This document shows, in pieces, positions 28,997 to 54,146 of a stretch of 64,000 nt of DNA (positions within the stretch are counted from its first letter, which is position 1; every line of letters begins with the position of its first letter). The position numbers were made by a program, and so were the translations under genes. The notes under the pieces were generated by a model. It was given only the letters and a program-made list of their open reading frames with translations, did no database searches and had not been told where the DNA came from. Source of the DNA: Hydractinia symbiolongicarpus (lineage: Eukaryota > Cnidaria > Hydrozoa > Anthoathecata > Hydractiniidae); the NCBI RefSeq assembly GCF_029227915.1, contig NC_079880.1:12241501-12305500 (forward strand), written 5' to 3'.

Positions 28997-31733
28997 CAGT
29001 CGTAAATCCTGGGTTACATATTGCAAAGATTAAGGAGAAAATCATATGCGGTAGAGGAAGGGAGACGTTCGTGTCACAATTTCAGACATCATTCGTGACG
29101 GGTAAATGTCGATTTTTTTGTTAAGATGAATGGGTAAAGGCTTCTCTGGCTTGAGTTTCTGCGTTATTTTTTTTTTAAAAAATCAATATATATAGTTTAT
29201 TTTATTTAATATTATTTTTATGTTGCATATAGTTTTATAAAGTTAATTTTATATAATTTAGATTAGAATTTTCTATTTTCTTTAAAATATTTTTAGCATA
29301 AACTTCTGTTTAATAAGTTGACATTCGATGGTTTTTATGAACGAGTAAGTGAGCTTTGCCAGGTGCTAAACTAAATGGTAAAAACAGCGAGTGAAATGTA
29401 CTGCTTTACAAAAACCTCGTCAGCAAACTGGCGTGAAATACGCTGAGGGACAGATACTAATATAAAAAAGCGGTTATAGCCGACACTGACGGAAAAGAGA
29501 AATCGGTTTGTTTTGCGTCAATATTAGCAATCGATTTTATGGGTTTATATGGCAACAAGTTTAATCTGGAGTCCGATTTTTGTACCGTTTCGGGAAGTCT
29601 GGGAACGTGCTTCAATGAAATTTTATCTCCCCATATCCTTCTGTACAATTTCCTGTTTTGGCACGCTATTTTTCAGCTACAGACAGAGAAAGTCATTCTC
29701 GCCCTCCATCTTTGCTATTGTTAGATTTCACCCTTCTCTAAACAGCCTTATTTATATCTACCTTATTAATATACATTTCGTTGATTTTTTTTTCATTTTT
29801 ATATATAAAATATAGATTTATTTTTCTAATATATACGATTCAGTGTGAAATATATATAATCTCGAATGAACTTTTTTTGTTTTGACTCAGCTAAATTATC
29901 TAGTAAAAGGTGTGAGTGCATCTGGTGAAATAAAGCTATTTCTACTAAATTTACAAATAAAGTTGGCACTAACAAGTTGTCCTGCTGGCTGTGGTAGAGT
30001 GATTAATTCATGACCTTTCTTTTCTCTAAAAAAAATCAAACGTCAAAGAAGTTTGCTCCTTCGTCAACGTGACCACGTTATAAGATATTGGAGCTGTAGT
30101 AAAAGACAAACTATCTAAGGATTGATTTAATTCTGTTTATTGGTTATATTAGTTGCTTTAAGCGTGTTTGCAAAGTTCGATAAACTCGAAACTTTCTGTT
30201 CTCGTGTAAATGAGTAACGTTTTTCAAATTTGTGGTTTTGTTTGTTTGTTTTTTACCCTTTTTTAACAAAGTTGCTTTTATGCTAGAAAATACAGTAATT
30301 TGAGCTTTACAATTCCTGCATGCCATGTCACATAAAAGGATATTGTCCAATTCAGACGTCCTTCGTCTGTATTGGACAATATCCTTAACAGCATTTTCGA
30401 CAGGTTCTATGATTCTGCAAGATAGTGATTTCATTTCATTTAATTGGAGCGTTACTTCAGTTCGTTTTTTTCTATGGACACCTTCATCAATCTACATTAA
30501 TGTTTTCAAACGAGAAATGTTAAAATCCATAAGATATCTATGTTATAATACCCACTGTCTGTCTGTGAACCAGTTCACAAACCCCCGGTTTTGTAATAGA
30601 AAACGTCATTATAATAACAACTATAATTATAGCAATTAAAGAACTAAAAACAGATGGTTGTTAGTACTGCTCATCATATATAAAGGCGATTGTCACCTAT
30701 GTAGCTGTAATACACAGAATCCTACTCCGCCGTATACACAGAATGCCGTTGCAGTTGAAGAACCTGTTAAGCGAAGAAAAAACAAATTTCCATAGTATAG
30801 GCAATAAAGCTCAGCACGAACGAAATATCGCCGTAGAGGAATGTATCAATTGGAACGATGCGCAAATTTAAAATAGACAGTTAACGCACCCCGAGAAAGA
30901 AGGCACGGAACTTCTTATGAAATATCATTCGTTTAGCCGATAGAGAAGAAACCAGTCGGCATTTCGTAAAAGAGTATTTGTCTGATAACATATAGCATCT
31001 CACTCCGTGGATGAAAAGCAAGTTAAAATGACAAGGTCGAAAGCATCAGCAAAGCATTCGAGATTTCTAAAAGAAATATGTATGCCAATAAAAAATATTT
31101 TAATGCCCATGAGTTTAAAAATTCGGCATTTCTTACTCAAGAATAAGGGAGATATTCTTGAAGTATACGAAGCCATTGCCATTAGTTCATAATTTAGGTC
31201 TATATTTGGGTGCATATATGATTGCATCACATCGGTCATTCTCATTGTTAATGGGTAATAAACATCGAAAAATTACATTCTTTGATGTCAAATTTTTGTT
31301 CAGATATTCTGTAGTGCGAGGGGTAACCTCGTCCCTAGGGCATTTTGTATCTTTTCTGAACACCAGCACGGTGATACGAACATATCTCGCCCTTCCAATA
31401 TAAAAAAGAGACAACATGCGCTGGGAACGAGGTTGCGCGAGGGGCTCTCATTTCGAGATATATATAAAAAAACCTGGTGTAATCAAGAAATGTAATCGCA
31501 CTTCACATTGCACTTCCACATTTTTCAAGATACTCAGTTGTTTTTGAAAGTTACTAGTATTCTTGACCAACTTGGCGTAAGGATTAATTACTTTAGCAAC
31601 AAGAAAATTTGCACATGCGCGTGAGTTTAATTATTACCTTTCCCATCAAGCTAAGAAGCGAAAGTAGGAAGCAGTGAGGCAGTAAGATAGCTTGAACAAA
31701 CTTGCCTTTGAACTTCACTTTACAAGATTTAAA
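28997..31733. other. Intergenic region after P4HA
   Basis: AATAAA signals occur at about 29930 and 29955 and could serve P4HA. A near-perfect hairpin with 23-bp arms lies at 30336-30386 (AAGGATATTGTCCAATTCAG, one mismatch, loop TCCTT). A TATATATAAAAAA stretch near 31457 could be a TATA box for the following ORF. Short frames here show no recognised motif. Confidence 0.4.
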
Positions 31734-32072
31734 ATGGGAAACAAAGAATCTCAAACAGAATCTTACAACATCGCCAAGACTGGTGATTATGTTGCCATTG
31801 AGGATTTTCTTGAAGGAAACTACAAGAAATGGATTGCAAACAACGGCTATGTGAATCCAAACTTGTCTACTGAAGTCATTGAAGCTTTTTCACATTTCAC
31901 CTACCATAACAGTAATGGCGAACTTCTGATTTGCGATATACAGGGTGTTGAGAAAGCAGGATACTACCATCTAACTGATCCAGCCATTCATTCATCATCT
32001 GGGCCTGGGTATTACGGTTCCACCGATTTGGCAGACAGCTGGAGAGGATATTGGAATAATAAAAAACGATAA
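31734..32072 (+). CDS. Alpha-kinase domain protein, C-lobe only (112 aa)
   Basis: Resembles the second half of alpha-type (MHCK/eEF2K/TRPM7-like) protein kinases, which phosphorylate Ser/Thr. Visible in order: VAIEDFLEGNYKKWIANNGY (20-39), AFSHFTYHNSNGELLICDIQ (51-70) with the Asp expected at the active site, then LTDPAIHS (80-87) with a probable zinc-binding His, and YGSTDL (94-99). The ATP-binding N-lobe and the usual C-terminal His-x-Cys-x3-Cys zinc cluster are absent; the protein ends in KKR. The chosen ATG gives MGNKES, which fits an N-myristoylation signal (Gly2, Ser6). The frame is open about 40 nt further upstream without ATG, and upstream exons cannot be excluded. It may be a truncated duplicate or a specialised minimal protein. 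Domain identity is fairly sure; completeness is not. Confidence 0.65.
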   Translation: MGNKESQTESYNIAKTGDYVAIEDFLEGNYKKWIANNGYVNPNLSTEVIEAFSHFTYHNSNGELLICDIQGVEKAGYYHLTDPAIHSSSGPGYYGSTDLADSWRGYWNNKKR

Positions 32073-32989: not shown

Positions 32990-34194
32990 TAAAGTTCCAA
33001 GATAAGAAAAAAATTTAATCAGCTCACCCTGTAACTTCTAAAGTATACCGTTTTTTTGGGTTAAAATGTTTAGAACCGAATAGGGTTAAATATTGTACTT
33101 GTAGCAGCAATGACATTTGACATAAAGAATATTTGGCGGTTTTAACGAAATTTTTTATGCGCCAGTTATACAGCCTCAAAAATCAATTTATTTTCTCTCC
33201 AAATTTGAAGAAATATGATGGGTAGGATAATTAGATTTGTAGGAAAAATTTGTGCTATTTATCGAGAGTACTCTTGAGTGAAATCCAGAAAGAACACATT
33301 TCTTGGTCCTTTTTTATATTGCCCTTATCCTACCACGCATGCTCACCATGTGCACTCCTTCACAGGGCCGAAAAGAGATAGTAAACACTGTATAAACCGC
33401 GACTTTTCTGTTTTAAAAGGTTTTATGCATTTTGGAAAGAAAGTTCGTGTACTGGTGTTGTTTACATCTCTACATTTTGTTGTAGCTAACCATGACTCAT
33501 TATAATAACTTTAGTTTTTTCTAGGAAAAGAACATAAGAAATTATTTTTAATCTTTACAGAGATAGTTTGAGTCAAACACACAACATTTCAAAAGTTCCA
33601 TGGTGACAATAAATAAATAACTGAAAAACTCAAATATAAAATCGGTATGCGAATCTCTAATTACTTTTACATAAGTTCAGGGGGTCAGGCTTTTAATCTT
33701 ATAACGTTAGAATGAAGACACGTGGTTGATGCATAGTCTGTCTACAATAAAGATATAAATATCCATTTACAGCAGCGTAGCATGCAATATGAATAAATAA
33801 TAATTTTATGCGTAATAAGAATACACAACTTTTATTACAATGCAACCCCCGGACTAACCTTTATGTATTCTTGGAAACCTTAATTTTGAATTGTCCTGTA
33901 ACCGGGGGTCCAGTTAAACAGTTTGGTAAGAAATGATTTGATTTAATTTGATTATTAGTCACTTTTCATACATTCATTATTCGATTTAACGCATTTCTCC
34001 CTATACTTATTATATATTAATCATATCTGGGATTATTTAAATTAAAAAAGAAATACCCCTTGTCAACCACCCCCCCTTCTCTATTTCATTTGCTCATTCA
34101 GTATTACTCGTGTAATGGTGTCTTATTAACAAAAGGTTAGCAGCAACGTTTACAACTATGGAGGAACATAAAATATATGTTCAAAACAACTTAA

Positions 34195-34911
34195 CCCTAT
34201 TCGGTCCGGGGGGGGGGGCGGATTTCGCCCCCCCCCCTGACGGTTTTTTTAATAACTCCTCCTGATTGCTTTGTTATATGGCTATGATACTTACTGAGTT
34301 TCAACATTTATCTATTAGACACCTGCATGCTAATTTTTTAGGTCCCATACCTTTCAGAGGCTTTGATATTGGCCATTACTCGAAACTACCCCTAAAAATC
34401 TCTATGAAGTCCTTATAATAGGGAAAATATAACAACTCCTGTTAGGATTATCCTTAGAACTTGAAACTTGCAACACAACTTTGTTTCATCAAGAAGAATT
34501 ATTGTGAATAATTTGAACACGTGACTAATCCGATTTCCCGATTTTTTCGGATTTCACCCGAAAATCGGAAAAAAACGGATTTTCGGACAATTTTTGGCAA
34601 TTTTTTATCCGATCCATGTAAAAACCGGAAGATATGTTAAATAACTTTTACTTAGCTTTCAGAAACTTCAAACAGAATGTAAAAATTCGCTCTAGAACAA
34701 AAGTAATTATATTTTAAGCAGATAGTGGCATTTTTAACAATTTTCAAGCTTCTGATGACGTCACAGAAATGTGCTGACGCAAGCGAAAGTTTAATGGCGC
34801 CATTTTGTTCCTTTTATGACGTACTATAAGTGTGCCAAGTTTGATTCAATTTGAACAATCCTATGAAAAGTTATATCATAGTATGTTCGAAAAACCCCGG
34901 ACCGAATAGGG
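34195..34911. mobile_element. 717-bp piggyBac-type MITE with TTAA duplications
   Basis: CCCTATTCGGTCCGGGG at the left end is mirrored by CCCCGGACCGAATAGGG at the right end, and TTAA flanks both (34191-34194, 34912-34915). A G-run/C-run hairpin lies just inside the left end. There is no coding sequence. A truncated copy is at 50016-50530, a split relic lies around 35440-36500, and an isolated end (ACCGAATAGGGTTAA) is near 33076. This copy stops about 60 bp before the first recognisable HEPN exon. Confidence 0.85.
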
Positions 34912-34974
34912 TTAAAGTTGTGGAATATTTTAAAGGTATTTGGGACAAAGTATGTTTTTGATTTATTTTATCAG

Positions 34975-37900
34975 GATTTCCCAAGGGATGGTACACAATG
35001 CTATCAAGCAATTAAAGGCAGTTTGAATCAAATCAAGAAACGTGTGAATCGTCAAGCAGTTTCGGTCCTTGGTAAAAAAAATGAGGAAGTGGATATGGAA
35101 AACATAGATTTGTCATTAGCTATCACCATTTTCATAACTATACATAAAAATCATAAACACGTCAAGCCATTGAAAAACATAAAAGAATTAAGAGACTATC
35201 TCGCCCATGATTTAAAAGAAGAACCCGAAAATAACAAATGAAATCTTTGAAAAAAAGTTTTCACAACTAAAGGAGGATTTAAAAGAACTTGGTGCAAGCG
35301 CAGAAATAATCGATGGAGAAAAAAATAAAGTATTCGGAAAGGAAGAAATTAAAGAGCTGAGTGATGAAATAGACAAAATACAAGAAAAATTAAAGAGCAT
35401 TAAAATAGGTGAGACTAACTTTTTTATGACGTTTAACTTAACACCCTATTTGTCAAAAACCTGGCAGCTAAATTTTTTTAAGTGCCATACCTCAAAGAGT
35501 TTTAGATATAGGTATTACTCAAAATTTCTATAAAATCCTTATAATTAATAAAATACTAGTCGATAGGGCCTGTGGAGTAATCCACTTAGGCAGAACGACA
35601 ATGGAAAAATAGGTTGTTTTAGATTATTTGCTGATGTCAGCAGTGCAAATACACAAAAAATAAATAGAGAAACTTGTTTTCATGTTTCCTCCATTGTGTA
35701 GAGCTTACACTGCTGATCAAGAAAATGTATATAATCGTGAGCGATTAATGAAATGTAAGGGTTTAAAAATTTTCCTGACGTCGGCAATGGCCCATCAAAA
35801 CCCAAAGAAATTTTTTAGGAATTTGAATACATGTTGCCTTCATCGCATAGATCTTGAAACGCTGATCAAGAAAATGTATAGGATCGTGTATATTTGATAA
35901 ATGGTTGCAGAGATATTAGGGTTTAAAGGTTTTTTCATGACATCATCAACCCGTCCATTCCGAAACGGATTCGGGGACCCAGGTTTCGGAAAATTACCCA
36001 AATTGGTCCTAGGTGGTCCCTAGTTACCCACGCGGTGAAAAATCATTGACGTCACCACCTCGTTCCAAGTTATTTGGCCTCAAAGTTTTAAGTACACTGT
36101 AATGGCCTTATTAATTTGATATAGGATATTGACGGTAAAGTAGTGTTATTGACGTTGCGCCGTAACGTCAGAAAATTTAACATATTAGACTATAATATTA
36201 TAAATCATTTTATTATATTATATTATAAATCATTATAAAAAGTTTTGACACGTAGCAGTCCTATTCCTTTTGGATTATGTGGTAAATTTTCGCAATTTCG
36301 AACAGGAGATATGTTAGATAGCCTCTATTTGGCTATCAGAAACTTCAAACAGAATGTAAAAAATCATTATAGGTAAGGTAAAATAATTGAAAGCAGAAGG
36401 TATTATGGACAAATTTTAAGCTTTTGATGATGTCAAAGAGAAAGTGCTGACATAAGGAAAGAATTTATTGCCACCATTTTGTGTTTTTTGTTCCTTTACT
36501 ACAACTGTACTCATTTTGTTTTTTTAAAGATTCATGTTCTAAGTCGCGCAATAGACCTATTTCCACATCCATTTTCGTTCCGCGGAATATACATACAAAA
36601 TTACCAAACAACATGAAAACGAGATTAGTTATAAGCAAATTTTTAGTTTTCAGCTAAGTAGTGCAGATATGGTTTGTTTACCTGTAATATTTGCAAAATT
36701 ATTTGTCGTACAGATTGTTATTAACATTTGGTGATAATATGGGATAATAGTATGTATCTGCCAAACATTGGGTCGCTCTAATATTCTTGGTGTTAATTGA
36801 GCTAGATATTAGCTAGCTTTGAATAAGATGATATGAGTTAATGGCTGGATGGCTCATTTGTTTTAAACAAACGTAAATTTCAAACTGTTTATTAAAATCA
36901 ATGATTTTGCTGGTATATACAAATCCTTTGTCTCCAGTTATTGAGTGACCTTTTTTCAAACAATATCTGTAAAAAAAACATTAATTAGGCTTACTCACAG
37001 TGCTTTTAAATTAATAGTTGATCTTATGAGTTCCTTACCCTGTTTTTTTTTCAAGTAAGGGTAGTTTTGAAAGTATATAAAACTCACATTTTACACGTTT
37101 GTGTTTTCATAATTAGGTGCTAATTTGACTTAGTGGGGCAAGTTGGGCGTTAAACTTTCCATGAAATTTTTTTGCTTATTTTTGTCATATATCAGCCTCC
37201 ATCGTAGATTGTATTTGTTAAAAAAAATTAAAATTCCAAAATATAAGGTTGACAAAAAAGAAGAAAAAAAGTTAATAAATAAACAAAAGGAATATAAATA
37301 CAATTCGAACATTCTGCAAGATTAATTTTCAAGATGGAGATTTATGATAAGCTATATGCACTATCAATTCATATTACTTACAAATTGTAATTATTAAGGT
37401 TAACCATCACAATGCTTAATACAAATATACGATTATTGACAGTCGGTAAGAGAGACAGAGTTGTGACATAGGGAGCGTGACAGTGACAAAATCACAACAG
37501 ACAATAGTTTGAAAATATTAATTTTAAATATCATTGTACGTAACGAATGCTGAAAATGCTTTGTTGATTGATCATGCGGCTAATCTCTAGCTACAATCCT
37601 TTACAAGGCTTTAAATGGGATTATTAGAAGTGTAATGTCCAGTCTATCACTTTCCGGTTTGTATTTGTGAATGATACCCAGCATGATAATTTTATTTCTT
37701 TGAACTGATCAGAGTAATATGAAGTGCCACTAAGCGTTAGTAAACCGTACATTAGATTTTAGTTCTAAATTTACTAGAATTTAAAATCTACAATATTTTT
37801 TGTCACACCACTACCAATACCCTCTTTATAACTGTGTTAACTACGATTTTGTAAAACTGCCAGTTAAAAGCTGTAAAAGTCAACATTTTGTTGATAAATT

Positions 37901-40900
37901 CTTCAAAATTGCATGTAAACAACCAGTATCCTGAAATTTGCTCATAACTAATTTCGTTCTCATGTTATTCTGAATTTTCGCATGTATATTTTGTCGAACC
38001 AAATAGATATGGAAAAAGGCCTATTCATAAAACATAGAGTTTTTGAAAAGCTACTACTACGAAAAGCTACTACTATCCAATAAAAATAAAGTACATTACA
38101 ATAATATCACTTCTAATTACATATTACCATATTTGTTACGCAGGCACACTATTGTAAAATAAAGTTAATTGGATAATGTTTTGCCAAGCCAGCGGATTTT
38201 TTAATAAGCCATAACTTATCAGTAAAACTGAATAGCTTTGTTCATAATGCATTGGCTTCTCTAGTTAACTATCTAACTACATATACATTGACGTTCCTTT
38301 TAATAATACTGCAACAACAAAATACTTCGATTCGTTGGTACAAACCTACAATCCTGGCCAAAATTGGTTGAGAAAAGGCCCAACACATGTGGATTTATTA
38401 TCTTTATTATCATTATTTTTGTTTCTGTGGTTCCATGTGTAGAGATTCTCTGTTTTGTTGACATAAACTAGCCAGCAAAATTGTGGTATGTGTATACTAA
38501 AACAGTGCAGGTTTTCACTTATAGAATAGTAGCTAGTTTATCTTATAAGCTTATGTTGCATTGGAAATTTTATCAACAATTTTGACCAGGATTGTAGATA
38601 GAGCCAACCGAAAATATTTTTCACAAAAAAGCTTTTGAATACTTTGCGATGATACATTTAGAAATAATAAAAAAACTGTAGATCGACGGTTTTTACAATA
38701 CGTCTACGTTAAACAAACCAAACTTTAATTTCCATTTTTTTTAATCCATCAATTTTTCGTAAATATTCTTTTATTTTTCTATATGGTGAAATTATTTTAT
38801 GCCCTCCTTTTTTTGTTATTACTGAGAAATGAAAGAAAAGACCTTTTTACTGAGTTTCTTACTATTTTTAAATAAACCTAGATTAATCTAGGTAGAAGCA
38901 GCCCAACTAGCTTGGTTGTAAAACTGCAAGCACTTTTATTAAGTGAATCCACCCCCTATAGTTAAAATAACTCTTCAAGTGCTACAATTGAATATTTTTT
39001 CAATTCTTTTTGTATATGCATCATTAATGAAATTTCCTTACAAACGTTTACGGTCAAAAACCTTCGCCGAAACTACCTATGATACCCTGATTTTCCCATA
39101 CTGCATTATGAATTCATAAATTTAAAGAAGATAGCGCTATCAGTAAAAAGGTTTATTGCCGAAAATAAAAATTAGCACACTAGACAAAATCGCAGTGATC
39201 AAAATTTTATTTAAGTAATACCATTCAAGAGTGTCAGCTGTTTGTTTGTTTAACAGAACATGTATATAAAGATGTTAACTCAGGTTTTTTGGTAATTTTG
39301 ATTCTATTATTTTTCATTCGTAAACCTTGGTTAATAAAGCCTTTGATACTAAAATTAATCACAAAAATTTAAAATCAGGCACGAAAGGGGTAAACGCAAA
39401 TGCAAATAAAACAACTAAAACTTTCGTCTTTCAATCTATGTGCCATTTTTGTGTATTTATCTTAATTTACCTTTAAAGCAGGGGTTCAAATGACAATTAA
39501 TTTGGAAGAAGTTTCAGTACCAAATTTAGGCCACGTACTTTTAATCCTTATTTTAATCCTTATGATGTCCTGTACATACCTGTCAACATCAAATTCGTAC
39601 GGGAAGTAAGCTTTTTGAAAAAAATGGCTTTGCGACATATAGTGTCAATTTTGTATTTTCTTGCGACATCTTGTGTTGCGACATATAGTGGCGTTATTTG
39701 CGACATATAGTGGCGTTTGCGACATATAGTGTCACGACATCAGCAACTTTGTTTTAACAAAAACATTAAAATGAAAATTGTGCCGAAAAATGGTAGTTAC
39801 ATAAAAAGGTTAATTTTTAAACACCAAATTTTGATTTAAAACGCAAACTATTAAAACTGTTGCATTTTCGTTTTAGCGCAATGAAGACGAGAAAAGTTTA
39901 TAAGTAGGACCAAACCTAGGGTTTTTTTAGCCTAAAATGGGCTAGAAAAAAGCACTCTACATTTCTCGTTGCTGTATTTTTTAAACTGGGGTCAGGATAT
40001 CTCATCCTTTTATAAATTTCATGGAAATAAAAAAAGTAAAGAGATGCAGAAAATCTTTGTATTCCTATACAGTTTTTTTTGTTATTAAGGAGATCAACAA
40101 GTTAAAGAAATGTCTTCGAAAATTTCAAAGCTCTCTGATCAAAATAAAACGCTTGCTAAAGAGTTTATAAAGTACATTAAGAGAGGAGAAAATGCAAACA
40201 TAAAAGAAATGGGCGCAGTAACAATAATTAAGAAAGATGAATTTCTTATATGGCCAAGATGTACTGATATCGAGGACGACAAAACATCAAGTCCAATTCA
40301 ACTTACAAAAATATACATAGGGTATCAAAATAGCGTAGGTTGGGTTGCTGTTAAAAAATGTCCCAAGGATAATAAAGCCATCAAGGTAATGAAGAAGTTC
40401 TGTTGGCCTTTTACATTTCCAAACGTTTTGTATATTACAAAGATTTTTACTGAAGAAAACAAAAGCTCCTGCTATTTGGTGACAGAACTTTGTGACAAAA
40501 CGCTGAAAGATTACATAAAATCAGGAATTGAGGAAATGGAAAAAGTGGAAATGGCGATTACCTTGTTAAGAGCAATGGAATATCTTCATACTAAAGAAAT
40601 TGTGCACAGAGACATCAAGCCCTCAAATATCCTTTTCACAAATGGCGTCCTAAAGGTTGCAGACTTTGGAATTAGCCGTCAAATAAATCCTGATGCAACA
40701 TACAGAACGACTAATGCAGGGACATTAGATTATCAAGCACCTGATCTTATCGGCGAACAAGGCAATGTTCTTGTTAAATTTAAACATGATGTGTACAGCG
40801 TTTTGGTTATCATGTTTTATATATTTACTGATGGAGAACATCCATTTCACTTTGATGTTGACCGAAGTTTGAAGAACATAGAAAGAAAGAAAAGGATCAC

Positions 40901-41869
40901 AGACTTAGATTTTCGCTACGAAAAGCCTATAAATAAGAAAATAGAAAACCAATTAAAGCAGTTCTTGTTACGCCATGTTGCATCACTTGTGAAGAATGGC
41001 GAAGCCGTGACATTGAAGGAAATAATCTCATTTTTTCAAGAACATACCAAAGCAAATCCTTATTGCACCACTTTAATGAAGGAATCTACATCAGCAGTTT
41101 CATATAAGCGCTACGCTATATTACTATACTTCACTACTGAAACTGAGCAAAAGAAACATTTTCTAGAAACTGAAAAGAATGTTAAAGAAAGAAAGTTCGA
41201 TGAAGCTACTTTAAATGTAGTATTTAGGGAATCTGTGGCAGAAGGAGCATTATCCTCCCCAGTCGCCGATGTAACGCTCATGCGTAATGCTCTTGAAAGA
41301 TGCGGATTTGACGCGTCACGGACGAAAGATGACGCCTCTGTAAACGATTTAAAGGCCATGATAGAGGACATCGCAGCAGGAAATCAAAATCAAACAATAT
41401 GTATCTTTCTTCACATTTCAGGTCATGGGTTTCATTGTGAAGAAAACGATGATACTTTTATAATATTCAAAGAGTCAGAATTTTTGCAGTCAATCAAATT
41501 ATTCGCATGATCATTACTACAATTGGAGATAATAACCAGATTATTTTCACAATAGATGCATGCAGGAAAATATCTTCCATCGACCGACAAGAATTGGACA
41601 AAATCAACTTACCTCCCAATGTATGCATTTTATACAGCTGTGAAAAGGGTAAAGATACTGCAGATGCTGGTATGTCAGCTAGCATTAAAAGTAAATTGTG
41701 TGATGGTGCGAATACAGTTCCAGCAATTTTCTCGAAGGCAATTTCAGAAAACATCACGCGCGGATTGAGCGTAGATCGTTTGTTTGAAAGAGTGGAATCT
41801 GTTATGAGAAATGAAGGTTCTTGCACCGTAGCACCTGAAAAGCAAGGCAATATCGATTTTGTGTTTTAA
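34975..41869 (+). CDS. HEPN-like / Ser-Thr kinase / caspase-like fusion protein (5' incomplete, two frame breaks)
   Basis: Two exons are supported: 34975-35408 and 40091-41869, joined by a GT-AG intron whose phase fits (AAAATAG^GTGAG ... TTATTAAG^GAG). Exon 1 has a HEPN-like helical block ending RDYLAH, an R-x4-H motif as in RNase-type HEPN domains, then a coiled coil. Exon 2 encodes from SSKISKLSD a kinase with VAVK lysine (40353-40355), HRDIKPSN and DFG intact, most like IRE1-type kinases in my reading. A caspase-like (clan CD) domain follows: YAILLYF strand, ERCGFDAS, HISGHG with the catalytic His, and, in the next frame, TIDACRK with the catalytic Cys (41561-41563) and FSKAISENITRGLSV. 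The frame breaks once near 35230 (one extra base in an A run) and once near 41481-41485 (one base short in a T run). No start codon was found; at least one 5' exon is missing. Either break could be an assembly error or mean a pseudogene. Domain calls for kinase and caspase fold are strong, HEPN moderate. Confidence 0.75.
35440..36500. mobile_element. Relic of the TTAA MITE, split by another repeat
   Basis: 35440-35550 resembles the part of the 34195 MITE around 34315-34425 (CCATACCT, GATATTGGCCATTACTC-like, AATCTCTATGAA-like). 36270-36500 resembles its later part (TATCAGAAACTTCAAACAGA, GAAAGTGCTGACATAAG-like, CACCATTTTGT). Between them sits the repeat at 35551-36215. It lies in the large intron of the kinase/caspase-like gene. 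The terminal repeats are lost. Confidence 0.6.
35551..36215. repeat. Dispersed repeat, copy 2 (family of 10621-11356)
   Basis: It begins TACTAGTCGATAGGGCC and follows the 10621 copy through CCACTTAGGCAGAA, GTTGTTTTAGAT, the duplicated CTGATCAAGAAAATGTAT unit, GGGGACCCAGGTTTCGG and CCTAGGTGGTCCC. The 3' end is less clear. It interrupts the MITE relic listed separately. Confidence 0.65.
38349..38594. mobile_element. Tc1/mariner-like MITE, copy 2 (uninterrupted)
   Basis: This 246-bp copy of the element at 4595-4973 has ends CAATCCTGGCCAAAATTG and AATTTTGACCAGGATTG, flanked by TA. It lacks the 130-bp foldback found in copy 1. The sequence is otherwise nearly identical, so both insertions are recent. 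It lies in the large intron of the kinase/caspase-like gene; the remaining intron (36500-38340 and 38600-39620) shows no recognisable feature. Confidence 0.85.
39630..39740. repeat. Tandem GCGACATATAGTG motif
   Basis: TTGCGACATATAGTGTC or TTGCGACATATAGTGGCG occurs four times, with one shortened GCGACATCTTGTG, in about 110 bp of intron. It could be the repeated end of a DNA transposon. Confidence 0.65.
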
Positions 41870-48374: not shown

Positions 48375-49934
48375 TTAGTCTTCTGAGCGTTCTGTTATTA
48401 GTGGTTGCACCCATATCTTGTTTAATTCTGGGGCCATCGACAATTGAAAAATTGATTGAAGTATTCGATAGTTTTTTATTCGTTCAATCGCCCGTTCTAC
48501 ATGAATTCTTACCGAAGCTATTCGTCTGGTTTCTAGCTCTTCAGTCAAAGACAAATGTGATTTTCCATTCATAAATGGTGGTATGTTGAGTGATACATTT
48601 TCTGGGAGGTCATCATTAATATTGAAACATAGGTCTGCCATTAGGAATCACCTGGTTCTAGTAGTTTTAAAATCCCACAATGTTGTGTTATTTTTCGATC
48701 ACTTGATCTTCCAGCGTATAAGTCTGAGACAAATGTAATTTGTCCACTAGGTGCTATCCCAGCTAATCCTTTAGCGGTGTTTTGATGCTTGTAATTTGAA
48801 AACGTGGCAGACTGGCTTCGATAAGATGTTGGCATCTCAGTAAATATTTCTGTACAGTCAACATCGTGTTGTAGGATACAAGTCCTTGAAACTTTTTGGC
48901 ATAGTGTATATTATGGTTTGTTTAGAGGCCCATATTGGCAGAGCTCTTAATTTTGTATGCAAAAAGTCAATCCATGTTATAAGAATACGACTAGCATCAC
49001 TTGTTGACATATTGAATCGCGCTCCTAAGTCTTCTACAGGAAAAGCACACCGCAAGCGTATTAAAATCATAAAAAACTCTTCCTTGGTTGTTAGTGTTCT
49101 CGAACGTCCTTTTTTGATTTGATTTGAATCCTTTTTATTCATAATAGTGCTAGAACCCCAATAATTCAGAGAGCTAGCAGCAGGTTGTAAGTATTCAACA
49201 ACGACATAAAATAGGTCATATGATTCAAATCCTGTGTAAAATTTAAAATGTGCTTTATTGTGCTTAAAACGATCTAATGTAAACTTGGTCTTATTCAAAG
49301 TGTCTGATAATTCATTTATTTGATTTTGTAGTTCTTTTTTTTTTTCGAACTTATTGACTCCAAATGTGACACCTTGCTTTTAAGCTCCTGTATCTCTTGC
49401 ATTAATAGTTCTTCATTAGTAAGCTCTGGCACTTTTTCATTTCCTTGTGGCTCAGGTAGGTTTCTTTTAATACCAAGACTGTTTTTAGAATCCTAGGTTT
49501 ATATACTTTTGGTTTTACAATCTTTGGAACAACTGTTAGGATGTTATTCATGTAAGTCTTTTCCCACAATCAAAGTGTTCAGAACATACTCTGTGTCCAT
49601 TAGTTGCTACAAAATTAAAGACTAATCTTGCCTAGCCATATATTTCGTAACTCAGGATTTTTTGGAAATACATAAAACGACAAGTATTTGTTTTTCTTTG
49701 AGTTGTTGTTGTTGCACAATGGGACACAACAAGTGAAGCCACCAACAGGACTCCCTAACCCTGGATTTTTCTCGTTTCTCGGTATGTTTATCGGACTTCT
49801 TAAGGCAAAATCAATATCAATATCTTCCGAAGGTCCAGATGTATTAGAATGTTGTATAAACTTTTGAGAAAAACTGTTTTCAGGTTGATTAAGAATAGCA
49901 AAATCATTGTTTTCTGTTTTTATGCCTAGCCATG
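48375..49934 (-). pseudogene. THAP-domain / DDE (DDE_Tnp_4) transposase of ISL2EU (broken)
   Basis: On the minus strand, in order: a THAP zinc finger ([41 protein letters not shown]; about 49770-49560), a coiled-coil-like stretch (NEELLMQEIQELKSKVSHLE), an HTH/transposase start (KTKFTLDRF, LTTKEEFFMILIRLRCAFPV, FNMSTSDASRILITWIDFLH; 49298-48858), KGLAGIAPSGQITFVSDLYA (48770-48715, with the second catalytic Asp expected in VSDLY), and RIASVRIHVERAIERIKNYR (about 48530-48470) near the C-terminus. Several frame changes separate the parts, so it is inactive. Confidence 0.75.
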
Positions 49935-50015: not shown

Positions 50016-50530
50016 CCTTTCGGTCCGGGGGAGGGGGCGTATTCCGCCCCCCCTCCCTGACGGTTTTTTTTAATAACTCCTTATTGCTATGTTATATGGC
50101 TATGAAACTGACTGAGTTTCAATATTTATCTATTAGACACCTACATGCCTAATTTCTAGGTTCCATGCTTTTCAGAGGCTTTGATATTGGCCATTACTCG
50201 AAACTACCCCTAAAAATCTCTATGAAATCCTTACTATGGGAAAAATTTAATAACTCCTGTTAGGATTATCCTTAGAACTTAAAACTTGCAATACAACTTT
50301 GCTTTATGAAGAAGAATCATTTTGCATAATTTGAACACGTGATTAATCCGATTTCACGATTTTGTCAGGTTTTACCCAAAAATCGTAAGAAACCGGATTT
50401 TCGGACAATTTTTGGCAATTTTTTGGGCGATCCACCTAAAAACCGGAAAATATGTTAAATAAATTTTATTTAGCTCTCAGAAACTTCCAACAGAATGCAA
50501 AAATTCCCTCTGGAACAAAAGTTATTAACT
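50016..50530. mobile_element. Truncated copy of the TTAA MITE
   Basis: After TTAA (50012-50015) it begins CCTTTCGGTCCGGGG and follows the 34195 element through the G-run/C-run hairpin, CCTGACGGTTTTTTT, ATTGGCCATTACTCGAAACT, and CTCTGGAACAAAAGT. It stops near 50530, about 200 bp short of the right terminal repeat. Confidence 0.8.
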
Positions 50531-51157: not shown

Positions 51158-54146
51158 CTACCGGCAACCACATTCGTCTGCTATCATATTGGAGTAAATT
51201 ATTATTTTAAAATTATGAAACAATACTTTCAAAGGTGACATTTTGGTTGGGACACAACATGGTGAAGGTATTTGATCATAAGCGATAGCTACGTTGTCAT
51301 AATCGGCATGATTTGAGTTATAACGAGGACATTTTCCCCTGCAGATGCTAAAGTTGTAGCCTGTTGGTGCTATTATCCACTCATTCCACTCAAGATCCTC
51401 CTGAAAGCTGACATGAAATTTTTTCAACCTGCATAGTTTACGAGCATTTCTTTTATTGGCGAGACTTGTAGACCTTTTTGGCGTCTTTTTATCTTTTCCA
51501 AATTCACCATGTGGCAACATTTCATTTGCATTGATTTGATTACCAGAGTCACTGTAGAGGAATAAAGTTAAAAGTGGTAGATGTTCGTCCAAACCATTCA
51601 GATTGATACCACAGTCACTCAAGGTTTTCTTTTTCCCTTTTAGCGTTTTACACTCAATTAATAGACCGTCATTTTCAGACGGATCTTGTTGCCATGCTAA
51701 GGCGGAGATTGTTGTATCAACTTCATGCCACTTGGAGTGCGTTGTATAGATGCTTAAGCTGCCTATCAATTTAGGACAAGCTCCTCTCTGTATTTGCGAT
51801 ACCAATAATTTAAACCTGTCATTGGTTGTTTTCGCCTCTTCAGAATTTACAAAAACTCTAAGAGCGGATTTGATTATTCTTTTATTTTCGACAGATTCCA
51901 TTATTTTAAAAGAAATAACACCTTCTGGATCACTATAGGTTGGTCGTCCTAAATATAAAATAAAATTTAGATATATTAAACAAAGTTGAAATATATCATA
52001 ATGCTGATGCTATGGATGTTTTATTTTGCATAAAATGTCTCCAGCTTCACCAAACTGTTCCAAGTTGAATGATAAGGAACAAGGCCACAAAGAGGAATGA
52101 AAGGCAACAGCTTTTTTAATTAACTGGAGTTATGTTGTGATTGTATTGATGTTGTATAAAGGAAAACTTACTTATTAACTGGGAAAAATCTCTTTTCAAC
52201 GGAAGAATTACTTGTCTTTAAATTATATTAGCGTGAGTTGTTGCTATTATTGCCGACTTGTTATTGTGATACAAATTTACCCGTTATTCTTTAAAAACCA
52301 AACTTTTTTTCTGTTATCATGTTGTGAGGGCGACTGAAAACTTTAAAAAATATTTTTACCAACCCTCTTTTTTCTTTTTATTTATTTTTTATGTTAAAAT
52401 ATCAAGTATTTTCTTGTTTTTGTTTTATAACAATATTTTTTTTGATTTTCGTCGTCGCTATCCAGGCTAAAGTGCTGGCACCGGGTATTTTTCAGTTTTT
52501 TGATATGCCAATGAGAATGGCCTTGATTCTTTTCTCAACGAATCGTAACACAGGTTGTTTAACTGATCCTCATGAAACGCTCACAAGTATTCTACAAAAT
52601 GCAGGCAGTCATGATTGACTTTACTATTGCTGCTCGATAGCAAAGTCAAAATGTTATCTATGTACATATATATTATGAAAACGTGTGAAGTGGAGGAAAA
52701 CATGACACTATTTGCCCAAATATCAGATAAAGCAACAAGCCCTAAGAAGAAGGTTGCATCAACTTTCATACAACGCAGCCTGGGTACCAGTGAAGACTTG
52801 CAGGCAAAGATTTTAGCGTTACCGTTCAAGGTTTCATTAAAGTGCTGAATTGGTTTGCCATTTGTTTTCTAAGGAATGGTAAGTTTGATACACAGCTTCA
52901 AAGAAAGTGTGAATAATATTATTAAAATAATATCATTATTTATGCAACTATTAGAGGAAGCATTGACTAAAATACTTGGCGGAAAATGGATGAATCACTC
53001 CTAGATATTGGTACACAACTTTTTCTATGACCAACTGCAGTCGTTTGTGTGTGATCAGAGATAACCAGGCTTAGAAAAGGACAACGGAACAGAAATGACT
53101 AGCTTATCGTAGTAAAAGAAACAAAAATTGATAAACGAATGTCAAGCGAAAAGAACATTATCTATGAGATCAATTTCAAACATAATATGATTTAAAAATT
53201 CCACAACTACACACATAGCGTGTTAAAATGAAAAATTGCCAGTAACATGCAATCGTGCAGGGACAAGTGAAAACTGCATCAATATACAAACAGCTGTGTA
53301 GTTACTTAAACTGTATTTTTGTTGTTTTAACGCTGATTAAAGAATAAAAGATCTAATTGCAATTTAAACATATTCTCACGTAATATTTTGGCGATTAATC
53401 ACCTCATGTTAACAGGCTACTTTAATCTGTCTCTCTGTTTGCCTCTCTGCCTGTCTGTAACAGGCAAAGTATATGTGTTCATTTTCTTTTGAATTTGAAA
53501 AAAAAATGAATGTCAACAGCTTAATTTAAAATAATGAAGACATTACAATGCACTTATAACTTAAGTCCAATTAAATTTGGAAACAGTATGGTGATGTTGG
53601 TAACTTTTGCGATGTCTGTAAATAGGAAATTGGGTCAATTCCCCAAGCCTGTCATCCAAGTGGGTCATCCTACCCGTTTCGGGGAGGACGGGTTGATGAC
53701 AGCATTTCTAAAATTTTAAACAGATACTTATGTTATTCTCTGCTTTGCGCTTTCGAACAATCACCACGATTAACAAAAAAAGGGAGACATCAAATTGTGC
53801 TGGCTAAATTAGCACTCTTACAGCGCTTTGCAGTATGACTGGAAAGAAAACACATAACAACAGAATGCCACTTACTCGTAAAAGGAATAGGAAGAAGAGC
53901 TGTGATTTCATTTGCTCCATTCAGCTCGTAATTTGGATCTTGATAGATCCCTTTCAAGTACACACTTAACGAGGTAACCCGTTCTTGAGTTTTATCACGC
54001 TGAGTAATGGCTGGGGTGTATAATTCATTATGGCCAACATACTGCTGCTGAGTGTCTGGAAAGGATGCGATCGTTTTGTTAATAATAATACACATAAATG
54101 CAAGTAGTGAGCTGGTAATAAACAAAAAGGCCATTTCGGATATCAC
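51158..54146 (-). CDS. TGF-beta superfamily ligand (activin/GDF8-like mature end), two exons
   Basis: Secreted dimeric growth factor precursor, 353 aa. Exon 1 is 54146-53876, exon 2 51948-51158; the 1927-bp intron is GT-AG and phase 1. Residues 1-27 are hydrophobic and act as a signal peptide. The prodomain contains KLIGSLSIYTT, KWHEVDTTISALAWQQDPSE and GLLIECKTLKG, like the latency-associated region of TGF-beta ligands. RNAR (257-260) is a minimal furin site. The mature domain (about 93 aa) has FHVSFQEDLEWNEWIIAPTG, CRGKC, SPCCVPTKMSPLKVLF and ECGCR: seven cysteines (263, 293, 297, 321, 322, 350, 352) of the cystine knot. CCVPTKMSP is closest to GDF8/activin-type ligands, but the extra N-terminal cysteine pair of that group is missing and only 23 residues separate CRGKC from CC, shorter than usual. 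Subfamily is therefore open. Confidence 0.9.

Follow-up and report, generated by a model that had tools for sequence, protein, structure and literature searches.

Does a stretch of the Hydractinia symbiolongicarpus genome encode one protein in which a protein kinase is joined to both an HEPN domain and a caspase-like protease in a single chain? This question was raised by an initial annotation of the window analysed here, which is the 64,000-nucleotide stretch C6:12241501-12305500 (contig NC_079880.1, forward strand). In that annotation, an HEPN-like domain, an IRE1-like kinase and a protease were read as one transcript unit and were supposed to act as an immune or stress effector. Judging from the sequence, we think, with a probability of about 0.75, that the gene found there has become a pseudogene and that it comes from a small Hydractinia family, the ancestral form of which carried a DZIP3-type HEPN domain, a kinase and a paracaspase-like protease in this order. 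The positions given for the gene are those in the window.

Reading frames of the window gene

All modules of the gene lie on the + strand in the order HEPN, kinase and protease, and they are joined in one splice phase. The features of the gene are as follows, with the basis of each in brackets.

34158..34190, + strand: probable start of the HEPN exon, the first 11 codons with the ATG (read as an empty site, it runs in frame into the HEPN open reading frame, ORF)
34191..34915, no strand given: short mobile element of 725 bp inside the first coding exon, resembling a miniature inverted-repeat transposable element (perfect 21-nt inverted ends including TTAA)
34912..35238, + strand: HEPN domain, first frame, closing with a stop codon (ORF; DZIP3-type by hhalign)
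35191..35208, + strand: R-x4-H motif RDYLAH (polar residue after R)
35216..35241, + strand: frame break separating the first HEPN frame from the second (ORFs overlapping in two frames)
35216..35408, + strand: last HEPN helix and charged linker, second frame, up to the donor (ORF; homology to the paralogue)
35409..40089, + strand: phase-1 intron of 4681 bp (GT donor at 35409, AG acceptor ending at 40089, matching phases)
40090..41510, + strand: kinase domain followed by the first protease half, in one open frame (ORF; Pfam Pkinase and Peptidase_C14)
40344..40670, + strand: kinase motifs VAVK (40344), HRDIKPSN (40605) and DFG (40662) (sequence motifs)
41418..41429, + strand: catalytic His motif SGHG (sequence motif)
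41453..41510, + strand: frame break inside the protease, separating its His half from its Cys half (overlapping ORFs; the paralogue is open there)
41453..41869, + strand: second protease half with DACR at 41555-41566, to the stop codon at 41867-41869 (ORF; likeness to the paralogue P0002)

The motifs RDYLAH, VAVK, HRD, DFG, SGHG and DACR are all present on the + strand, as had been claimed. The HEPN exon had been thought to start at 34975. Its frame extends further back to the TTAA element and, across this element, to the ATG at 34158, which the insertion has severed from the remaining HEPN exon. When the TTAA is counted once, the flanks of the element continue in frame. The start obtained in this way, M-[DE]-E, also opens the HEPN ORF of the paralogue.

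The two frame breaks in the window gene are single-base breaks, one being in the HEPN part and the other between the protease motifs. On reading the sequence of the overlap at 35216..35241, we found no GT able to open an intron, and SGHG and DACR lie in separate frames in this copy. The exon junction that had been placed at 35408/40091 is borne out as a GT/AG join in phase 1, although the second exon begins at 40090. The three modules are not spanned by a single open frame: the HEPN frame stops, the protease motifs are divided between two frames, and an element is inserted in the first coding exon. The three-part protein therefore cannot come from the unit as assembled. Since an insertion interrupts the coding sequence and its frame is broken twice, the window copy appears to be a pseudogene, and for this reason it is probably not itself the effector that had been supposed. 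The truncated kinase P0001, which has 466 amino acids and starts with MSSKISKL, could still be a product of this copy.

The inserted element has relatives elsewhere. A related copy in L015 is 92% identical over 689 bases, its far end being present as a separate 40-base piece, and partial copies are found in the window (50019-50527 and 36307-36482) and at other loci. The ORF list contains no ORF of 90 amino acids or more lying wholly within the element. An ORF with a transposase helix-turn-helix domain, which may be unrelated to the element, is located at 48861-49379. A scan of 34000-34300 for bacterial promoters and terminators gave nothing useful. In the intron of the gene, several near-tandem copies of TTGCGACATATAGTG were seen by eye at 39629-39735.

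The paralogue and the history of the two copies

The window gene has a paralogue in the same genome. When the kinase-protease frame was used as a query against the protein database, both P0001 (the ORF of the window itself) and the paralogous protein were obtained. Its product P0002 consists of 659 amino acids and bears the database name 'calcium-dependent protein kinase 3-like', which omits the protease. The gene is located at C6:12117717-12119630 on the - strand, with residues 1-25 encoded at C6:12142846-12142920. It is in the opposite orientation to the window gene, and the kinase exons of the two genes are 162 kb apart on the same contig. The kinase-protease frame of P0002 is intact and has the same layout as that of the window gene. 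The two are 79% identical over residues 81-532 and 85% identical over residues 530-659 (110 of 130 residues, the second protease half).

Upstream of the small exon of the paralogue lies an HEPN ORF (L009, 1394 to 939, - strand), which opens with M-D-E-E, encodes 152 residues and has no internal stop. It is 48% identical to the window HEPN in 156 aligned positions. The annotated ATG is at 921, which is 14 nt past the HEPN stop and in another frame. The paralogue does not possess R-x4-H; the corresponding sequence is ANYVTN, with A and N at the R and H sites. The paralogue could be expressed as a two-cistron message, in which the upstream ORF is translated into an HEPN protein, translation of the kinase-paracaspase begins at the ATG following the stop of this ORF, and the two proteins act together. 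Such a message would be compatible with a pseudogene in the window, and the ending of an uninterrupted HEPN ORF just 5' of the annotated ATG on the same stretch agrees with it. However, two-cistron messages are rare in animals, the paralogue has lost R-x4-H, and the window copy has no such arrangement. We consider this explanation quite unlikely.

It might also be supposed that the exon for HEPN is part of one gene and the kinase-protease exon part of another, the two genes merely being neighbours. The charged linker after the HEPN domain is poorly conserved between the copies, as such a supposition would have it. However, the order, the strand and the phase-1 boundary of the kinase exon are equal in both copies despite introns of 4.7 kb and about 23 kb. 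In addition, annotated P0002 uses the longer intron and joins the stretch directly 3' of the HEPN ORF to the kinase exon. Two unrelated neighbours are, in our opinion, very improbable. The three-part order of the initial annotation is apparently real as an ancestral layout common to the two paralogues, although it is broken in the window.

The breaks between HEPN and kinase lie at different positions in the two copies and go in opposite directions. Programmed frameshifting is therefore unlikely, and we set it aside. Since the in-frame link to the kinase has been lost in both copies, the HEPN part is probably dispensable now.

The divergence between the copies is not uniform along the gene. One further feature is defined by it:

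40650..41690, + strand: putative gene-conversion tract common to the paralogue (identity and synonymous divergence compared with the flanks)

In this tract, the two copies are 97.5% identical at the nucleotide level (26 differences in 1041), and the synonymous divergence, dS, is 0.058. The identity of the flanks is 67.3% over 40160-40649 and 83.2% over 41691-41869, and their dS is 1.19 over 40140-40649 and 0.32 over 41691-41866. Selection on the protein is not expected to cut dS twenty-fold in one stretch. We therefore infer that recent gene conversion kept the kinase C-lobe and the protease of the two copies alike.

In the HEPN part, 65 of 121 residues are identical between the window copy and the paralogue (51 of 100 in the first frame and 14 of 21 at the end in the second frame). 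The nonsynonymous divergence, dN, of this part is 0.35 and its dS is 0.96, so that dN/dS is about 0.36, with the reservation that rate estimates near a dS of 1 are imprecise. The dN/dS values of the other parts are 0.27 for the kinase N-lobe (169 codons), 0.30 for the tract and 0.51 for the 3' end (58 codons). These values suggest that the modules were under constraint for a large part of the time since the duplication.

Such values might also be expected if the three-part protein were still made and worked as one effector, the breaks being assembly errors or haplotype differences and the element being missing from other alleles. The dN/dS of 0.27-0.51 across the modules, the single-base nature of the window breaks and the paralogue HEPN ORF, whose 152 residues are open across the entire domain, can all be cited for this view. 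On the other side, it has to account for three separate frame breaks in two loci and a 725-bp insertion, in an assembly that traces to 66x PacBio HiFi reads (described for HSymV2.0 in PMC10411563; we assume that HSymV2.1, which is very probably the assembly used here or close to it, derives from HSymV2.0). It also has to account for the different places and opposite directions of the HEPN-kinase breaks and for the absence of the motif R and H from the paralogue. We think that a three-part protein still being made is unlikely, and we prefer to regard the window copy as a pseudogene.

Other members of the family are less complete. At C6:19740 kb, L011 (1774-1055, - strand) has a protease-only frame with SSHG and DACR, and at C6:23996 kb, L012 is a decayed copy consisting of a kinase tail and the protease. 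Within 30 kb upstream of L011 and of L012, no HEPN or kinase match was obtained at E <= 0.01. A divergent relative, P0004, has the kinase C-lobe and the protease in one frame, with about 37% identity. No intact three-part frame was found in the genome search with P0002, in which 67 of the 170 candidates were scored; because of this proportion, the number of family copies is a lower bound.

Identity of the three domains

What kind of HEPN domain is this? Pfam gave no HEPN match for the unjoined first HEPN frame. In a longer composite including the start of the kinase exon, HEPN_DZIP3 ranked fifth (E 0.021). The same family, PF18738, was top-ranked for the read-through P0121 (16.7 bits, E 0.0063) and for the paralogue (13.7 bits, E 0.055). 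Nine reversed or shuffled controls did not match PF18738, and three of them matched other families at E 0.0036-0.032. Since sub-threshold Pfam E-values can thus be reached by chance, we used profile-profile comparison instead.

When 124 candidates from the genome were scored, 108 matched HEPN_DZIP3 at E <= 0.001, which is a high number for a hydrozoan; the window HEPN and the paralogue HEPN were both absent from the 108. A reference profile was made from 8 of the 108 matches (those given loci), and the two-row alignment of our HEPN copies was used as the query. In hhalign, the query matched the Hydractinia HEPN_DZIP3 profile with a probability of 95.6%, an E-value of 1.1e-8 and a score of 55.1 over 106 columns. 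The maximum score of 100 column shuffles was 20.06, and the reversed alignment scored 9.13. Over the 106 columns, the R, D and H of the motif line up with those of the DZIP3/hRUL138-type domain. A difference was also seen; the GW loop segment, present in the 8 aligned Hydractinia members, is missing from the window family. In the definition given in PMC3710099, the motif is R-x4-6-H with a polar residue following R, and RDYLAH of the window copy has this form. We take the domain of the window gene and its paralogue as a divergent DZIP3-type HEPN. A protein database search with the HEPN part gave none of 3497 candidates at E <= 1, and a search of PDB sequences with the HEPN profile gave nothing meaningful. 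The genome may contain further divergent copies of this HEPN subtype.

The kinase was recognized more easily. Pfam Pkinase matched the frame 40089-41507 with an E-value of 3.7e-35. The K, HRD and DFG motifs are kept, and APD replaces APE. The glycine-rich loop is unrecognisable in alignment A6, which has SSPIQLTKIYIG where other kinases show LGxGxxG. Pfam found no KEN domain in the kinase-protease frame or in P0002; C14 comes after the kinase instead. When P0002 was compared with PDB sequences, 2492 matches were obtained at E <= 0.01, and the best 60 of the 2492 were all kinases. The top match was RPS6KA5, while IRE1 chains appeared at about the twentieth place and PKR was also lower. Outside Hydractinia, the closest proteins that carry a name are sea-cucumber kinases termed IRE1, and to this extent the description of the kinase as IRE1-like finds some agreement. 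The label is nevertheless weak, because the glycine loop and the KEN domain are both missing. Two Holothuria kinases, P0003 and P0014 (named IRE1/IRE2), have a sub-threshold death effector domain match C-terminal to the kinase (E 6.9e-05 and 0.0012).

The protease belongs to clan CD family C14, as judged from the profile and the His/Cys dyad, which in the window is split over two frames. The E-value of Peptidase_C14 in Pfam was 2.9e-07 in the window frame 40089-41507, which holds the first half only, and 1.7e-12 in P0002. The DACR-bearing frame 41453-41866 gave no Pfam match by itself. The QACxG-type site of caspases (C14A) is absent, the sequence being DACRK. By comparison, the Cys motif of a caspase-type frame could be read in 8 of 12 scanned loci (L022-L033), and it was QAC in all 8. 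L030 has a 735-amino-acid frame with GHG and DCC motifs, and we take it to be of the MALT1 type with Ig-like parts. The family proteases possess GHG (SHG in L011), DAC and Asp at the alpha-1 position. Their DxC and alpha-1 Asp align with those of L030 and correspond to the acidic S1 residues of paracaspases (C14B), the comparison covering these two Asp of the three MALT1 residues, the third of which is Glu on L5. According to PMC4357240, Asp365 and Asp462 of MALT1 sit in the P1 Arg pocket. Because the family has the paracaspase-type DxC and alpha-1 Asp instead of QACxG, cleavage after Arg or Lys at P1 is predicted. The term caspase-like may thus be kept for the Peptidase_C14 match and the His/Cys motifs, but the S1 residues are paracaspase-like.

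In a tree of 10 rows without outside references, three family proteases and L030 split from six caspases with support of 96/99. The identity between the family protease and L030 is 18.3% over 202 residues. When the protease part of P0002 was searched against the database, the 1752 candidates yielded only P0002 and P0001, proteins shorter than about 362 amino acids (such as P0004) being excluded by length limits.

Several of these results weigh against our reading of the family. The description as HEPN-like holds by the profile-profile match, but the Pfam cut-off of 27 for PF18738 is reached by neither HEPN copy. The P1 specificity is based on just two aligned residues. The branch of L030 is as long as 3.11 in a tree of only 10 rows, and for this reason the tree is at most suggestive. 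When the family protease profile was compared with PDB sequences, no caspase was matched. Finally, the frame may be broken only in particular haplotypes or through rare errors in the assembly.

Possible action of the family and its surroundings

How would an intact member of the family work? We suppose that the intact kinase-paracaspase would act inside the cell as an effector of stress or immune responses. Its kinase, formerly together with the HEPN part, would serve as a sensor and a dimerisation switch, and the C-terminal protease, once dimerised, would cut its targets after Arg or Lys in the manner of MALT1. The HEPN part would be a probable RNA-binding or RNA-cutting front end that has since been uncoupled. 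These functional steps are tentative, and we consider them less likely than not. As described in PMC4357240, MALT1 is activated via dimerisation and its Asp residues act in the choice of P1.

The family shares GHG, DxC and the alpha-1 Asp with MALT1-type paracaspases, and its upstream domains could drive dimerisation. In contrast to MALT1-type proteins, P0002 has no DEATH or Ig domain by Pfam, and a kinase is fused instead. A likeness to IRE1 and RNase L is also seen in that a kinase and an HEPN-superfamily domain stand in one gene, KEN being counted among HEPN in the classification of PMC3710099. Unlike in IRE1 and RNase L, however, the HEPN domain here is N-terminal and DZIP3-type, no KEN domain was found, and the protease takes the C-terminal place.

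As for known fusions of DZIP3-type HEPN domains, the table row in PMC3710099 gives TPR, Zn-ribbon, RING, ankyrin, CARD, NACHT, DEATH and LRR, and no kinase or protease appears in that row. We found no description of the domain order HEPN, kinase and caspase in the open-licence papers searched without supplementary files, including PMC3710099, PMC8195603, PMC8260672 and PMC7617490.

An HEPN_DZIP3 piece (3.2e-23) followed downstream by LRR pieces is located in L042 (504-4055, - strand), about 16 kb from the 3' end of the paralogue; this HEPN match contains one internal stop. According to the survey in PMC8260672, NACHT is combined with the DZIP3-type HEPN more often than with any other domain in several of the 15 cnidarians covered. 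The HEPN/LRR neighbourhood of L042 fits an immune setting but does not show it. In the window itself, an alpha-kinase exon (Pfam 7.9e-28) at 31686-32072 on the + strand precedes the broken gene by about 2 kb on the same strand. A TGF-beta family ligand with its propeptide lies at 51161-52009 on the - strand.

PMC7617490 counts nine caspases in Hydractinia (two with CARD, two with DED and five without a long prodomain), and no kinase-fused one is included in that count. The database name of P0002 likewise hides its protease.

A wider speculation may be added. Hydrozoans may have evolved a single-chain effector in which an HEPN RNase, a kinase and a paracaspase made separate adaptors unnecessary for linking RNA cleavage to phosphorylation and proteolysis. 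Some Hydractinia individuals or related species might still have this effector unbroken, and gene conversion between inverted copies might maintain its catalytic half. We regard this picture as rather doubtful.

Kinase and paracaspase modules usually meet via adaptor proteins. In P0002, a kinase and a paracaspase-like protease stand in one chain, with an HEPN domain in front by ancestry. We think that P0002 would be a ready subject for studying direct gating of a paracaspase by a kinase.

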